Part shown: positions 1 to 51,029 of the stretch, piece by piece
Numbering within the stretch: the stretch's first letter is position 1
How the letters are laid out: each line of letters starts with the position of its first letter
Assembly (NCBI GenBank): GCA_017934595.1
Contig: JAGBJG010000004.1
Coordinates: forward strand, 1-62,135
Direction of reading: 5' to 3'
DNA: 62,135 bases
Source of the DNA: Bacilli bacterium
Lineage (GTDB): Bacteria; Bacillota_I; Bacilli_A; RF39; UBA660
Made by a program: the position numbers and the translations under genes
The notes under the pieces: model-generated
Told to the model about the DNA's origin: nothing
The model's input: only the letters and a program-made list of their open reading frames with translations
Databases searched by the model: none

Positions 1-720
1 TGTTGGTTTTGTTATATCTAATGTTGTTCCATATTTATCTATACTTGTTTTACCACGATTACCATTTATTCCTGTTATTACTACTTTATATTCTGTATCA
101 CTTTTTAAATTAGTAAATGTTATATATGGTTCTTCATATTCTTTTTCTTCTACTTTCTTATCATTTAAATATATTGATACATTATATCCTTGAATACCTG
201 TTTCTTCATCATACATTAAATCTATTGGAAACGATACTGTTAATGCATTTGTTGTTGTAGATATTACTATATCATTTATCTTAGATTCATCTATAATTGG
301 ATTTGTATGATCTAGTTCACTACATTTACTATATACTTCTACATTTCCTTTTGTTCCTGATCCACAGTATACTCCATCACTTATTAAATCTGCTCTTACT
401 AGATTTGATGATTCTAATATTACTTTTCCTGAGATTGGTACTTTTCCTTTAAATTCTAGTTTCTTACCATTAGAATCTTCACATTCTGAACCATTACAAT
501 ATATCTCTATTGGATATATTGGATCATCATGATTTATTAATACATATTCTCCTACATAGTTATCTGCTGATTCTATTATTCCGTTTACTGTTTCTCTAAA
601 AGCTGCTTTTCTAGCAGAATCTATCACATTACTTATTATTGGAACTGTTATTAAAGCTATAATGGCAAGTATTACTATTACCGCTAATAATTCTATTAAT
701 GTAAATCCCTTTTTCTTCAT
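1..720 (-). CDS. Prepilin-like protein with FN3-like region, 3' end beyond window
   Basis: Reading from the ATG at 720, all 240 codons to the window edge are open, so the C-terminus is missing. Residues 1-30 are a class III (type IV pilin) signal: KKKG then FTLIE with Glu at +5 and a long hydrophobic helix, the substrate of a prepilin peptidase such as the one at 48416-49180. Residues 30-135 form a pilin head with a C-x4-C pair and an FKGKVPISG motif, closely matching the pilin at 55541-56944. From about residue 140 the sequence looks like a fibronectin type III fold (FTNLKSDTEYKVVITGING). RBS AGGAG lies 7 bases upstream. Its promoter holds an 11-base G tract. Likely an exported pilus subunit or pilus-borne adhesin; the FN3 call is by motif only. 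Confidence 0.8.
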   Translation of the reverse strand, partial: MKKKGFTLIELLAVIVILAIIALITVPIISNVIDSARKAAFRETVNGIIESADNYVGEYVLINHDDPIYPIEIYCNGSECEDSNGKKLEFKGKVPISGKVILESSNLVRADLISDGVYCGSGTKGNVEVYSKCSELDHTNPIIDESKINDIVISTTTNALTVSFPIDLMYDEETGIQGYNVSIYLNDKKVEEKEYEEPYITFTNLKSDTEYKVVITGINGNRGKTSIDKYGTTLDITKPT

Positions 721-744: not shown

Positions 745-775
745 ATTATACCCCCCCCCCCGAAATTTTAGTCAA
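745..775 (-). promoter_or_regulatory. Pilin promoter with G11 tract in the spacer
   Basis: On the minus strand TTGACT (770-775) is followed by a 19-base spacer and TATAAT (745-750). The last 11 bases of the spacer are all G (751-761, C on the plus strand), ending next to the -10 box. Slippage by one or two bases would move the spacer towards or away from the optimal 17. The divergent promoter of the next gene starts six bases away. Confidence 0.75.
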
Positions 776-836: not shown

Positions 837-2066
837 ATGACATTCAAGGAACTTACGAAAGAAGAATTTGATCGATTTTCATATAGTTTTATCCCTAGTA
901 CACCATTCCAAACTAGTGAATATGGTGATACTATGGCATCACAAGGATATACTATATATTACCTAGGATTAGTAGATTATGATAAGATTTTAGCTGCTAC
1001 TATGGTAATGGTTAAAACAGAAGGAACATTTAAATATGGTTACTGCCCTAGAGGATATTTAATTGATTATAAAAATAAAGAATTACTAACTGAATTTACT
1101 ACTAATTTAAGAAAATTTTTAAATGGTAAAAGTGTTACTGCTATTAAGATTAATCCATGCGTAGTTAAAAATATATATGATTCAAAATATAACTTAATCG
1201 CATCTAACCCAGATTATGAGATGATATTTAATAATCTAAAAGAATTAAATTATACACATTTAGGATATAATGCTTTCTTTGAAGCAGTAAGACCTAGATT
1301 TGAAGCAATGATAGAATTAAACACTGATTATTTCGTTGCGTTTGAAAATATGAGAAAAGAATTTAAAACTAAAGTTAGATCTGCAGAAAACTCAGGTGTA
1401 AGAATACATAAAGGTACATTTGATGATTTAAAAACAGTATATGAACAAGCTAAAGGAAAATATCCTAGAAACTTTAAATATTATGAAGATTTATATAATA
1501 ATTTTGGTAAAATGGTTGAAATTTATTATGCCAAAGTTGATTTTAATATTTATTTAAAGAAGAATCAAGCTGAATTTGTTGAAATAGAAAAAAATTCAAA
1601 TAAAATTAATGAAGAAGTAATTAAAAATCAAGGTAATCAAAAATTAATTAATAGGAAAATAACTGCAGATAAAGCTTTAAATATGGCTAAAGCAAAATTA
1701 TCCAGTGCTATTGAATTAATGACACAATATCCAGATGGATTAATAATCGCTTCATTAATTGTCATTAAAACAACTAATACTATTACATTAATGATAGATG
1801 CTCATGATAAGAAATATACAAGTTTCAATGCTAAACATCTAATTATTTGGAAATTGATTGAAAAATATTCTAAAGAAGGATATAGATTGTTTAATTTAGG
1901 TGGTATTACATGGAAAGTTGATAATACTAATAAATACTATGGATTAAATAATTATAAATTAGGATTTGGTTCTAAAGTATATGAATATATTGGAGATTTA
2001 GAATTCGTAACTAATAAACCATTATATTTAATGTATAGAAATACAGGAAATTTATTCAAAAAATAA
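837..2066 (+). CDS. FemABX-type aminoacyltransferase (peptidoglycan interpeptide bridge)
   Basis: The protein of about 409 residues has the FemA/FemX/MurM layout: two GNAT-like halves (residues about 1-160 and 170-409) and, at about 225-300, a lysine/asparagine-rich helical insertion like the coiled-coil arm of FemA. Family members move amino acids from aminoacyl-tRNA to the stem peptide of lipid II on the cytoplasmic face. The late motif LFNLGGITWKVD fits the family's conserved C-terminal core. I chose ATG at 837, not the in-frame GTG at 825, because AAAGGTGG at 822-828 is then a normally spaced RBS. The added amino acid cannot be told from sequence. It ends in a bidirectional terminator shared with the convergent glycosyltransferase. 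Confidence 0.8.
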   Translation: MTFKELTKEEFDRFSYSFIPSTPFQTSEYGDTMASQGYTIYYLGLVDYDKILAATMVMVKTEGTFKYGYCPRGYLIDYKNKELLTEFTTNLRKFLNGKSVTAIKINPCVVKNIYDSKYNLIASNPDYEMIFNNLKELNYTHLGYNAFFEAVRPRFEAMIELNTDYFVAFENMRKEFKTKVRSAENSGVRIHKGTFDDLKTVYEQAKGKYPRNFKYYEDLYNNFGKMVEIYYAKVDFNIYLKKNQAEFVEIEKNSNKINEEVIKNQGNQKLINRKITADKALNMAKAKLSSAIELMTQYPDGLIIASLIVIKTTNTITLMIDAHDKKYTSFNAKHLIIWKLIEKYSKEGYRLFNLGGITWKVDNTNKYYGLNNYKLGFGSKVYEYIGDLEFVTNKPLYLMYRNTGNLFKK

Positions 2067-34656: not shown

Positions 34657-34816
34657 AAAAAACCAAGTGGGACACTTAGATAATAAACCTGGTCTACCAG
34701 GGGGGGAACACATGAACTGCTTTAGGATCCTCTATAAAAGAGTATTCAACACCACAACCCAATTAGTTCTCCAATATTATCAACTGTAGGCTTATATAAT
34801 GTGTCTTTCACTTGGT
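34657..34816 (-). ncRNA. ssrS: Structured small RNA, probably 6S RNA
   Basis: A consensus promoter on the minus strand predicts a transcript start near 34816. The RNA begins ACCAAGTG and ends CACTTGGT followed by six T (34662-34657), so an 8-base closing stem doubles as a terminator. Inward, GACAC/GTGTC and ATAAGCC/GGTTTAT also pair, then come an open central region and an apical hairpin: a long, bubbled rod of about 160 bases, the 6S RNA plan. 6S binds sigma-A RNA polymerase. There is no SRP, RNase P or tmRNA signature. I cannot test the fold numerically. Confidence 0.55.
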
Positions 34817-47010: not shown

Positions 47011-48375
47011 ATGCTTAAAGTATTTGATTTTAACAAAATGCCTGTTGTTGAAGTTGTTAATGAAATATTAGTAGATTCAAGTAAACGCGGTGCATCAGAT
47101 ATTCACTTCGATCCATGGGACGAAATGATGAAAGTAAGAATTCGTATTGATGGTGCATTAGTCGATTACTGTGAAGTTCCTAATACAATAAAGAAAAATT
47201 TAGTTACAAGAATTAAAATTATATCTGGAATGAATATTACAGAATCAAGATTACCACAAGATGGTGCGATTAAGGCAACCCTACAAGATATTCCACTTGA
47301 TCTCCGTGTTTCTTGCTTACCTACTTCTAATGGAGAAAAGATAGTTGTCCGTATCTTAGACTATTCAATGAGTTTAGCCGGACTTGAAACATTAGGCTTC
47401 ACAGAAGCTAATTATAAAAAAGTATTACAAATGATTAGTGTTCCAAATGGTATTATCTTAGTTACTGGTGCTACTGGTACAGGTAAATCAACAACAGTTT
47501 ACTCTATACTACAAAAATTAAATAAAGAAGATACAAATATTATTACTGTTGAAGATCCAATAGAAATGGAAATTGAAGGTGTTAACCAAGTTCAAGTTAG
47601 TTCAGAAATAGGTTTAACATTCGCTTCTGCTTTGCGTTCTATCTTACGTCAAGACCCTAACGTTATAATGGTCGGAGAAATTCGTGATAACGAAACTGCT
47701 AAAATAGCCGTAAGAGCTTCTATCACAGGTCATATCGTATTATCAACAATCCACACCAACAACTCATTAAACACAATTGAGCGTTTACTTGATATGGAAG
47801 TTGAAAGATACTTACTTGCCTCTTCTCTAGAAGGAATTATATCTCAAAAATTAGCTAGAAGATTATGTCCTCATTGTAGAACAAAAAGACCTACTACACA
47901 TTATGAAAAAGAATTATTCCAAAAAGTATTACATAAGGAAGTTAATGAAATCTATAGTGCTGAAGGTTGTGAACAATGTGGTACAGGATATAAAGGAAGA
48001 ATTGCTCTTCACGAAGTATTATTAATTAACCAAGAAATAAGAGATGCCTTATCTGAAGGAATGCCTAAAGAAAAATTAAGAGAATTAGTATATAAAGCAG
48101 ATGTTGCAACATTATTACAAGATGGTCTTATGAAAGTTGAAGCTGGATATACTACATTTGAAGAAGTATTAAAATTAATTGAATTAGATGATGATGACTT
48201 AGCTGGTGAAAATGATTTAAGAAGTGCGATTGATACAGCTAGAATTGCTTTATCAGAAAAAGAAGATGCACAAAAACCTAATGTTGCACCTCAAGCACAA
48301 ACAACTGGTCCTACACCTAATGTATCCGCACCAAGTCGTATTGAAAATAGACAAATAGAAAATGCAGTTGAATAA
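47011..48375 (+). CDS. pilB: Type IV pilus/type II secretion assembly ATPase PilB
   Basis: GspE/PilB ATPase of 454 residues. It begins almost directly with the GASDIHFDP domain, so the N-terminal domain of long PilB proteins is missing. Walker A GATGTGKST is at about 153-160, then IIVEDPIE-type TVEDPIEM, VGEIRDNETA, and the zinc pair CPHC (286-289) with CEQC (320-323). A Pro/Gln/Asn-rich tail of about 45 residues ends it. It powers pilus extension from the cytoplasm. It is transcribed opposite to pilC-pilD and away from the pilin genes. Confidence 0.95.
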   Translation: MLKVFDFNKMPVVEVVNEILVDSSKRGASDIHFDPWDEMMKVRIRIDGALVDYCEVPNTIKKNLVTRIKIISGMNITESRLPQDGAIKATLQDIPLDLRVSCLPTSNGEKIVVRILDYSMSLAGLETLGFTEANYKKVLQMISVPNGIILVTGATGTGKSTTVYSILQKLNKEDTNIITVEDPIEMEIEGVNQVQVSSEIGLTFASALRSILRQDPNVIMVGEIRDNETAKIAVRASITGHIVLSTIHTNNSLNTIERLLDMEVERYLLASSLEGIISQKLARRLCPHCRTKRPTTHYEKELFQKVLHKEVNEIYSAEGCEQCGTGYKGRIALHEVLLINQEIRDALSEGMPKEKLRELVYKADVATLLQDGLMKVEAGYTTFEEVLKLIELDDDDLAGENDLRSAIDTARIALSEKEDAQKPNVAPQAQTTGPTPNVSAPSRIENRQIENAVE

Positions 48376-48393
48376 CTGTGTTTTTTTATGCAT

Positions 48394-48417
48394 CAAAAAA
48401 AGCATCATAAGATGCTT
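48394..48417 (-). terminator. Terminator at the end of pilD
   Basis: AAGCATC/GATGCTT arms (48400-48417) with a 7-base minus-strand T tract, overlapping the pilD stop. Confidence 0.7.
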
Positions 48418-49180
48418 ACCATGTTAAAAAATTTAATATTGCATTTATATCTAGATGTGTTAATAAGACTACTATTGCTCCTAAACTTAAGAATGGTCCA
48501 AATGGAACGATATGAGTCTTTTTTAAATTAACCGCGATAAGTGATATTGGTAGTCCTATAAATGAAGCTACCACAATAGACATCAAAGCATTAGGTACAC
48601 CTAGCATAATACCAAATATACCAAGTAGCTTTATATCTCCCCCACCCATTGATTCTTGTCTAAATATTAAATCGCCAAATTTTTTTAATATAAACATTAC
48701 TACAAAGCTTATTAATCCATATAATAATGTCATAGGTATTGTTTTAATTCCATAGATTAAAGCCTTCTCAATTAAGATAGCTAATCCAAAGAATATCAAT
48801 ACTTCATCTGATATAATCATATAATGATAATCAGATACCATTACTATTATTAACATTGATACAAAAGTTAATACAATTATAAGTTCATAAGTAAATCCAA
48901 AGCTTATATATGAAAGTACAAACAGTAATCCACAAAAAGCTTCAAACACTGGATAAAACCATGATATTTTTTGTTTACAATTCTTACATTTACCACCTTG
49001 AATGATAAATGATAAAATTGGAATTAATTCTAATGCACCTAATCTATGATTACAATTAGGACAATGTGAAGGTGGAGTTACAATTGATTCTCCTTTAGGT
49101 AATCTATATCCTACTACATTATAAAACGATCCTAACAGTGTGCCTAGAATAAATAGACCTAAACAAATACTTAACTCCAT
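48416..49180 (-). CDS. pilD: Prepilin peptidase (PilD-type)
   Basis: A polytopic aspartic protease of 254 residues. It has a zinc site CPNCNHR...CKNCKQ in the cytoplasmic loop and the two catalytic Asp, in VSDYHYMIISDE and in GGGDIKLLG. It cleaves after the Gly of KKKG-type leaders and N-methylates the new end; the pilins in this window are its expected substrates. ATG 49180 is preferred over the in-frame GTG at 49189. It lies 13 bases after pilC. Confidence 0.93.
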   Translation of the reverse strand: MELSICLGLFILGTLLGSFYNVVGYRLPKGESIVTPPSHCPNCNHRLGALELIPILSFIIQGGKCKNCKQKISWFYPVFEAFCGLLFVLSYISFGFTYELIIVLTFVSMLIIVMVSDYHYMIISDEVLIFFGLAILIEKALIYGIKTIPMTLLYGLISFVVMFILKKFGDLIFRQESMGGGDIKLLGIFGIMLGVPNALMSIVVASFIGLPISLIAVNLKKTHIVPFGPFLSLGAIVVLLTHLDINAILNFLTW

Positions 49181-49193
49181 CCTAATCACTTCC

Positions 49194-51029
49194 TTAATAT
49201 GTTGCTTGTAAACCGATTTGTTGATAAATGTTAAACATTGGGATTACAACAGCAAGTACAATTACACCTACACCAAATGTCAAGAACACAATTAAAAGTG
49301 GTTCAATGAATGCTTTTAATCTTGTTACTTCATTTCTATGTAATTCTTGATAGTATTCAGAAACTTTTTGCATCATTTCAGCAAGTTGACCTGTTTTTTC
49401 TCCTGTTACTATCATTTCATAAGCTGGTACTGGGAATGCCCAGCTATTTTCAAATGCTTTAGATATTTTTTCACCTCTAGCTAAGTTAGTAATTGTATCT
49501 AAAAGCATACTCTTATATATTTCATTATTTGTCATCTTATTTAAGATTTCCATACTATCAGTAATAAATACTGTATGTTTTAATAATGAAGCAAATGTCT
49601 TAGTGAACATTGTTACTTCATTATAAATAATAATTTTACTTATTGGAGGAATATGCATCAATAACCATTGCATACCAATTCTAATAACCTTAACATTCAT
49701 ATATAGATATCTTATTATCAATAAAACACCTATAATAGCCAAGAATAACCAAATAATATTTTTCTTTAAGAATTCACTAAAGTTAATGATTCCCTGAGTG
49801 AACGCTGGTATTTGAGCATTATCAAATGTTGAATATAATGAAACAAATTTAGGTATAACAAATAACATAATAAATGTCATAACGCCTATAGCTACTACTA
49901 AGACTATCATTGGATATGTCATAGCTGAAATCATTTGTTTTCTCGTAGCTTCAGTTTCAGTATAATAATTAGCCATATCATCTAATGCCTCTGGTAATTC
50001 ACCAGTAAGTTCTGATGCTTTAACCATGTTAATTAATAATCTAGGGAAAGCTTCATTTTGTTTAAATAATGCATCTGAGAAACTATCACCCATAGATAAG
50101 TCGTAAATCAAAGCAGCAAATAACTTTTGATACTTCTTTTGTTTATATTGCTTAGATAATATTTTTAATGAATCAACTAATGGAATACCAGCTTTAATAT
50201 ATGTAGATAACTGAGTTAGCATAAAGATTAAATCTTTTGTCTTAACTTTAACATTAGCTACTTTACCAGATGAACCATGTAATAATTGAATCCATTTATT
50301 AGTTCTAATACTATATACTTCAAATCCTTCAGAAAGTAAATATGAGTGAACTTCAACTTTAGAGAACGCATCAAAATAACCTTTAACAGTCTTACCATTT
50401 GCATCTCTCGCGATATACTCATAAACAATCTTAACTTCACTCTTTTCAGCATCTTCACCTTCAAAGTTAAGCAATAATGCTTGTCTATTGATATCATCTC
50501 TATTACGTGCATTCTTATATAATGTTGTATTTTGATAAGCTTTGATAACTGCTTCTTTAATTTTGGATGGTATATGAGCAATTGCGCCAAAGAATTTATT
50601 TAATGCCCAGTTAAGATCATGTTTTTCTAACTTAACATTTTCATTAATATATCCTTCTTCTTCAAGTTTTTGTTGACGCTTCATCTTAGCTTCTTGCTTT
50701 TTAATGAATTCTTGTTCTTTTCTTTCTTGTTTTTCTAGTAATCTTCTTTGCTTTTCTATTGCTCGCTCTTCTTTAGATTTTCTTAATTCTTCAGCATGTT
50801 CTGCTCTACTGCTTAATAATTTTTCTTTTGACTTAGAATTCTTGAATGGGAAAGCAATTATAGAATATAAATAATATGAAAAAGTAATATATCCCCATGT
50901 TACATATTTAAGTATATGTTTTACTAAACTAAAGAAAAGATATGAAAAGACACAAAAACCTTTCCATATATATTTAGGTATCGCGAAAAAAACGTTACTA
51001 CTTAAAGAACCTTGTCTTGCTTTTTTCAT
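49194..51029 (-). CDS. pilC: Pilus inner-membrane platform protein PilC with N-terminal extension
   Basis: The C-terminal 410 residues are a GspF/PilC protein with two repeated domains (LIFMLTQLSTYIKAGIPL; FTKTFASLLKHT) and three membrane helices. The first 200 residues are unusual: hydrophobic stretches at about 15-60, then a Lys/Glu-rich coiled-coil (65-125) and a linker. Standard PilC is about 400 residues, this one 611. PilC organises pilin assembly with PilB. First gene of the pilC-pilD operon. Confidence 0.93.
   Translation of the reverse strand: MKKARQGSLSSNVFFAIPKYIWKGFCVFSYLFFSLVKHILKYVTWGYITFSYYLYSIIAFPFKNSKSKEKLLSSRAEHAEELRKSKEERAIEKQRRLLEKQERKEQEFIKKQEAKMKRQQKLEEEGYINENVKLEKHDLNWALNKFFGAIAHIPSKIKEAVIKAYQNTTLYKNARNRDDINRQALLLNFEGEDAEKSEVKIVYEYIARDANGKTVKGYFDAFSKVEVHSYLLSEGFEVYSIRTNKWIQLLHGSSGKVANVKVKTKDLIFMLTQLSTYIKAGIPLVDSLKILSKQYKQKKYQKLFAALIYDLSMGDSFSDALFKQNEAFPRLLINMVKASELTGELPEALDDMANYYTETEATRKQMISAMTYPMIVLVVAIGVMTFIMLFVIPKFVSLYSTFDNAQIPAFTQGIINFSEFLKKNIIWLFLAIIGVLLIIRYLYMNVKVIRIGMQWLLMHIPPISKIIIYNEVTMFTKTFASLLKHTVFITDSMEILNKMTNNEIYKSMLLDTITNLARGEKISKAFENSWAFPVPAYEMIVTGEKTGQLAEMMQKVSEYYQELHRNEVTRLKAFIEPLLIVFLTFGVGVIVLAVVIPMFNIYQQIGLQATY

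Follow-up and report, generated by a model that had tools for sequence, protein, structure and literature searches.

A G11 tract between the −35 and −10 boxes of a type IV pilin-like gene in a Bacilli bacterium: a candidate phase-variable promoter with counterparts in related genomes

The pilin-like gene and its promoter

The stretch of DNA analysed here (the window, 62,135 nucleotides) is an entire contig (C12) of a 1.0-Mb genome assembly, which consists of 18 contigs and is 86% complete; the GC content of the window is 26.6%. At one end of the window, the minus strand carries the 5′ part (1-720, 240 codons) of a gene for a type IV pilin-like adhesin, assigned by profile matches to N_methyl and fn3 domains. 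The prepilin N-terminal motif was detected in this open reading frame with PF07963 (31.6 bits) and TIGR02532. An earlier sequence-only reading of this DNA had placed a pilin at 1-720; the pilin assignment stands, but its extent does not, as these are only the first 240 codons and the contig ends inside the gene.

Upstream of the ATG start codon (718-720), the minus strand carries a normally spaced Shine-Dalgarno sequence AGGAG (728-732), a −10 box TATAAT lacking a TGn extension (745-750) and a −35 box TTGACT (770-775), of which the TTGAC part belongs to a recurring pattern described below. The variable part of the promoter spacer is a tract of 11 G (751-761, C11 on the plus strand), which directly adjoins TATAAT. 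On the plus strand, the order is ATTATA (745-750), C11 (751-761), GAAATTTT (762-769) and AGTCAA (770-775), so that the minus-strand promoter reads TTGACT-AAAATTTC-G11-TATAAT-GTTTTATAGAATAGGAGACTATAT-ATG. With a tract length taken from the assembly consensus, the spacer (751-769) measures exactly 19 bp. Thereby, the 11 G and the 19-base spacer claimed previously could be read off at exact positions.

The tract is without equal in the window, as had also been proposed: it is the sole C or G run of at least 8 bases. The window's sole other run of seven G lies at 34700-34706 and is the runner-up. In the whole 1.0-Mb genome, just two G runs of at least 9 bases were found, and both directly adjoin a TATAAT with TTGAC upstream. 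By our own arithmetic, which treats bases as independent, chance predicts about 0.0005 runs of at least 11 bases per Mb when both strands are counted. The second run (C16:2135-2143) forms the promoter TTGACA-AAAATTC-G9-TATAAT with a spacer of 16 (C16:2122-2149, L005). It precedes a gene for a 220-aa protein of unknown family with one N-terminal membrane segment and is a second candidate switch. Homology of this gene with a similar-looking gene of another genome (G114) was considered and was not supported.

The motif TGnTATAnT occurs in 12 of the 21 distinct prepilin upstream regions of the genome and is missing from the G-tract promoter, which should therefore rely on its −35 box and, with it, on the spacing. 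The divergent neighbour, a gene for a FemAB-family aminoacyltransferase (837-2066, plus strand), has a promoter of its own at 782-810 on the plus strand, read by consensus as TTACAT-17-TATAAT with a TG extension. Judged from this reading, the femAB promoter is separate and its spacing is unaffected by the G tract.

Gene context and prepilin repertoire

The first 131 bases of another contig (C14) match window positions 1-131 in reverse complement. Its following part (L283:132-1586) extends the pilin frame to a total of 724 codons and adds TSP1-like and glycine-rich ALK/LTK-type domains; topA is the next gene. In the one congeneric genome compared (G001), the femAB orthologue (71% identity) and topA are adjacent and divergent, and no pilin separates them, so that the likely order here is femAB, G11 promoter and pilin, topA. 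The 131-bp overlap together with this synteny points to a join of C12 and C14. With 724 aa, the protein is longer than usual for a major pilin, and a minor, adhesive pilin appears likelier. From its prepilin motif, fn3 and glycine-rich domains, the product is predicted to be surface-exposed. As judged from the gene order, the pilin and its promoter were probably inserted between femAB and topA specifically in this lineage; with a single outgroup, pilin loss in G001 may be the alternative. A tract-bearing pilin gene in G001 was rejected as orthologue, as its match to the window pilin is confined to the N-terminus and its gene context differs.

A paralogue lies at the end of contig C15 (C15:120780-121499, L284), adjoins an aspartyl-tRNA-synthetase-like gene and shows 92% identity across the 240 residues encoded in the window. 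Its promoter has an extended −10 box (TGATATACT) and no tract. The nucleotide differences between both copies are patchy, with long identical stretches followed by clusters of differences, and the last 141 bp are identical; this patchiness suggests gene conversion. A recombination switch, in which either the C15 or the C12 5′ half is joined to C14, was also considered; the femAB-topA adjacency in G001 favours C12-C14 as the normal join and the C15 copy as a paralogue.

The window also contains the pilus machinery at 47011-51029, namely a PilB-like ATPase (T2SSE; 47011-48375, plus strand), a prepilin peptidase (A24; 48416-49189, minus strand) and a PilC-like platform protein (T2SSF; 49194-51029, minus strand). 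In the 1.0-Mb genome, 22 prepilin-like genes were found, and the genome is, as judged from sequence, the carrier of a large type IV pilin/adhesin repertoire. Many of these genes are long and encode fn3, TSP1-like or glycine-rich domains.

Recurrence of the arrangement in related genomes

The pattern TTGACN{4,19}GGGGGGTATAAT was searched in 60 relatives and then across the family, with 386 genomes covered. It was matched in 37 of the 386 family genomes and in 27 of 150 genera, at about 150 sites and with a maximum of 21 sites per genome; the reversed pattern, used as a control in the same 386 genomes, gave one match. Relatives recognised by a shared promoter sequence carry the labels uncultured Bacilli, Bacillales or Bacillota, and the sequence flanking the boxes is not conserved between genera. 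In 36 related pattern-bearing genomes, G runs of at least 9 bases numbered 440, of which 130 are directly followed by TATAAT (both hand sums), and the reversed control was found beside none of the 440. For the remaining runs, a non-random sample of 20 from four genomes showed TTGAC at most 20 nt upstream in 19 and TAnnnT downstream in 17 cases, so that long G runs in these genomes appear to be mostly promoter spacers. One genome (G156) contains 48 G runs of at least 9 bases.

Beyond the family, contigs of GTDB r220 contained at least 118 matching stretches, mainly in metagenome-assembled genomes named Bacilli or Clostridia. Among the matches listed were also Saccharibacteria and Spirochaetia as well as records titled as Streptococcus, Streptobacillus, Helicobacter and Blautia strains; chance may account for a few matches in taxa that are distant or of high GC content. 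A viral origin of the arrangement was rejected, with just five matches in viral contigs. The contigs of relatives (L193-L252) often stop at the tract, just past it or within the gene that follows. Such ends indicate that assemblies break at repeated promoters and N-termini; copy numbers are therefore probably undercounts.

In multi-copy genomes, the genes behind tracts form paralogous families with a common N-terminus and a divergent remainder, and the domains among them include pilins, Gp10_C-like domains and the Listeria-Bacteroides repeat. In G156, G261 and G337 (L200-L212, L292-L307), large families of exported proteins share an N-terminus and have a G-tract promoter for each member; some members carry a Gp10_C (phage baseplate C-terminal) domain.

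Tract length, spacing and the nature of the promoter element

With 11 G, the tract of the pilin promoter exceeds the length of 8 bases from which homopolymers are known to be unstable, and it is placed between −35 and −10; in meningococcus, homopolymers of at least 8 bases are mostly variable (PMC5084427). We consider it probable, at roughly 85%, that the G11 tract acts as a simple-sequence contingency locus for transcriptional phase variation of the porA/fetA type. The second tract of the same genome, the recurrence in relatives, an excess of exported products, differing G numbers and spacers away from 17 all lend support to the slippage switch proposed in the sequence-only reading.

Differences in G number bear on whether the tract is instead a fixed structural or regulatory element, such as a regulator site, a stiff spacer or a G-rich structure, which sets promoter strength without its length acting as a switch. 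The 130 listed family sites gave 19 groups of at least two copies within one genome that are identical from TTGAC to the tract. The G number differs, by whole Gs, in 13 of these 19 groups (e.g. 13/16/16, 11/11/12/12/12 and 10/10/11/11), with G numbers from 6 to 16 across the groups, which is not expected of a fixed element; six groups show no difference, including six copies in G143 that all have G9 and would suit such an element. It would also be compatible with an imperfect dyad, CCCC-TTGACCGAAAGGTC-GGGG, of which the tract is the outer arm in G025 (L029, L033, L036-L042) and G001 (L034). One example, CCCC-TTGACC-GAAA-GGTC-GGGG, encloses the −35 box, and a role as operator or another role is possible. 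However, the missing conservation of flanks beyond the boxes between genera speaks against a fixed element, and no single-strand fold was found at the G11 site (z 0.8). Taken together, we regard a fixed element as unlikely.

Spacer lengths and gene products are likewise relevant to the idea that the tract grew neutrally by slippage in a dispensable or decaying promoter and that switching was never selected. Among all collected sequences, promoters without a tract peak at a spacer of 17 (20 of the 41 with spacers of 15 to 21), whereas only 8 of 183 tract promoters have a spacer of 17 (p=2e-11, which is optimistic because the sites are related). Tract promoters cluster on both sides, with 35 at 15-16 and 134 at 18-20, and genome-weighted family counts agree (37 genome equivalents: 1.7 at 17, 9.0 at 18 and 12.4 at 19). 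We take this to mean that majority alleles lie away from the optimal spacer; alternatively, a G-rich spacer may have an optimum different from 17. Exported-looking products were found behind 90 of 108 tracts, but behind only 7 of 29 tract-free TTGACN-TATAAT promoters of the same loci (p=3.6e-9, likewise optimistic for related sites). Here, export was called for open reading frames of at least 80 residues by a strongly hydrophobic N-terminal segment, using a hydropathy cut-off and not a signal-peptide predictor; among background open reading frames, 169 of 423 have such a segment. Both the export bias and the avoidance of spacer 17 point to selection and thereby away from neutral growth. Furthermore, the −35 box, the −10 box, the Shine-Dalgarno sequence and the reading frame of the window pilin are all intact, and a homologous fn3 pilin from a different genus (G177; 32% identity over 233 aa) also has a tract, G16 with a spacer of 23. 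The apparent lineage-specific insertion next to femAB, which adjoins topA in G001, and the presence of 22 prepilin-like genes, of which one may be dispensable, would allow for neutral growth, which we nevertheless judge less likely still than a fixed element.

A sequencing or assembly artefact, e.g. dark-cycle poly-G of two-colour Illumina machines, might be suspected in an 18-contig draft and with many relatives' tracts near contig ends, but is highly improbable, as read-end errors would ignore promoter position, whereas TTGAC before and an exact TATAAT, a Shine-Dalgarno sequence and ATG after the run occur in hundreds of independent places, including the records titled as Streptococcus, Streptobacillus, Helicobacter and Blautia strains.

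If the tract is a contingency locus, slippage in G11 would alter the distance between −35 and −10 in single-base steps, this spacing would set pilin transcription, and the population would hold cells differing in pilin level. The assembled and thus majority allele with 19 bp would probably give low expression, and lengths closer to 17 would express more; it is plausible that the loss of two G from G11 leads to the optimal 17. Whereas the tract position, its recurrence, the export bias, the differing G numbers and the shift away from 17 are observed, we infer that slippage is the cause, that transcription responds to tract length and which length corresponds to ON. MutS is present and intact in the genome, so that slippage should not be elevated through defective repair, and loss of mismatch repair as the driver of slippage was ruled out.

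On a wider scale, we tentatively suggest, at somewhat below even odds, that uncultured Bacilli of this family, together with scattered Clostridia, Saccharibacteria and Spirochaetia, possess large phasomes built on one promoter design. These would comprise up to about 48 poly-G promoters per genome with mostly exported products and majority alleles one or two bases off the optimum, so that most of these surface genes would be off in most cells and few displayed at any one time. In that case, the porA-type promoter switch would be a standard tool by which small-genome uncultured bacteria, many of them from the gut, vary pilins and adhesins. One assembled genome gives one state per switch; the ON/OFF states of dozens of surface genes would be readable from existing metagenome reads via G counts, which would make surface display testable in lineages that cannot be grown.

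Comparison with known phase-variable systems

Most work on homopolymer phase variation concerns Neisseria, Haemophilus, Campylobacter, Helicobacter and mycoplasmas. In the vlp system of Mycoplasma hyorhinis, several surface-protein genes each have a poly-A tract in the promoter spacer. This resembles the relatives with 5-21 copies in having one homopolymer per surface gene; in contrast, vlp has A instead of G and serves lipoproteins of a wall-less pathogen. For the present family, a description of poly-G promoter switches was not found in the open-licence PMC papers searched, a scope that makes the novelty of scale provisional. The mechanism is already known, and the interesting part is its scale in uncultured, largely gut-derived lineages.

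The repeat unit of the Haemophilus influenzae hif fimbriae is a dinucleotide. It affects both divergent promoters there, whereas the mononucleotide tract described here affects one. Common to both is a promoter-repeat switch of an adhesive pilus between divergent genes (PMC9187656).

Poly-G/C tracts between −35 and −10 had been named in the sequence-only reading as the established switch of several surface proteins, e.g. in Neisseria; for porA and fetA, promoter spacing is reported to set transcription (PMC7864442, PMC5320596). As here, a G or C homopolymer between the −35 and −10 boxes of a surface-protein gene changes the spacer of Neisseria meningitidis porA or fetA in single-base steps (PMC7864442, PMC5320596). 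Unlike these, the present candidate switch, known from sequence alone, belongs to a Gram-positive, AT-rich lineage with a probably reduced genome. The gene that it precedes encodes neither a porin nor a receptor but a type IV pilin-like adhesin, and relatives here have many copies per genome.

The closest case from the gut is the Gram-positive commensal Bifidobacterium breve, in which G-tract slippage also controls a pilus; the authors of that study point to additional tracts located in promoter spacers (PMC9187656). Being placed within the coding sequence, the B. breve tract affects the reading frame of sortase pili, whereas the tract described here lies in the promoter of a type IV pilin.
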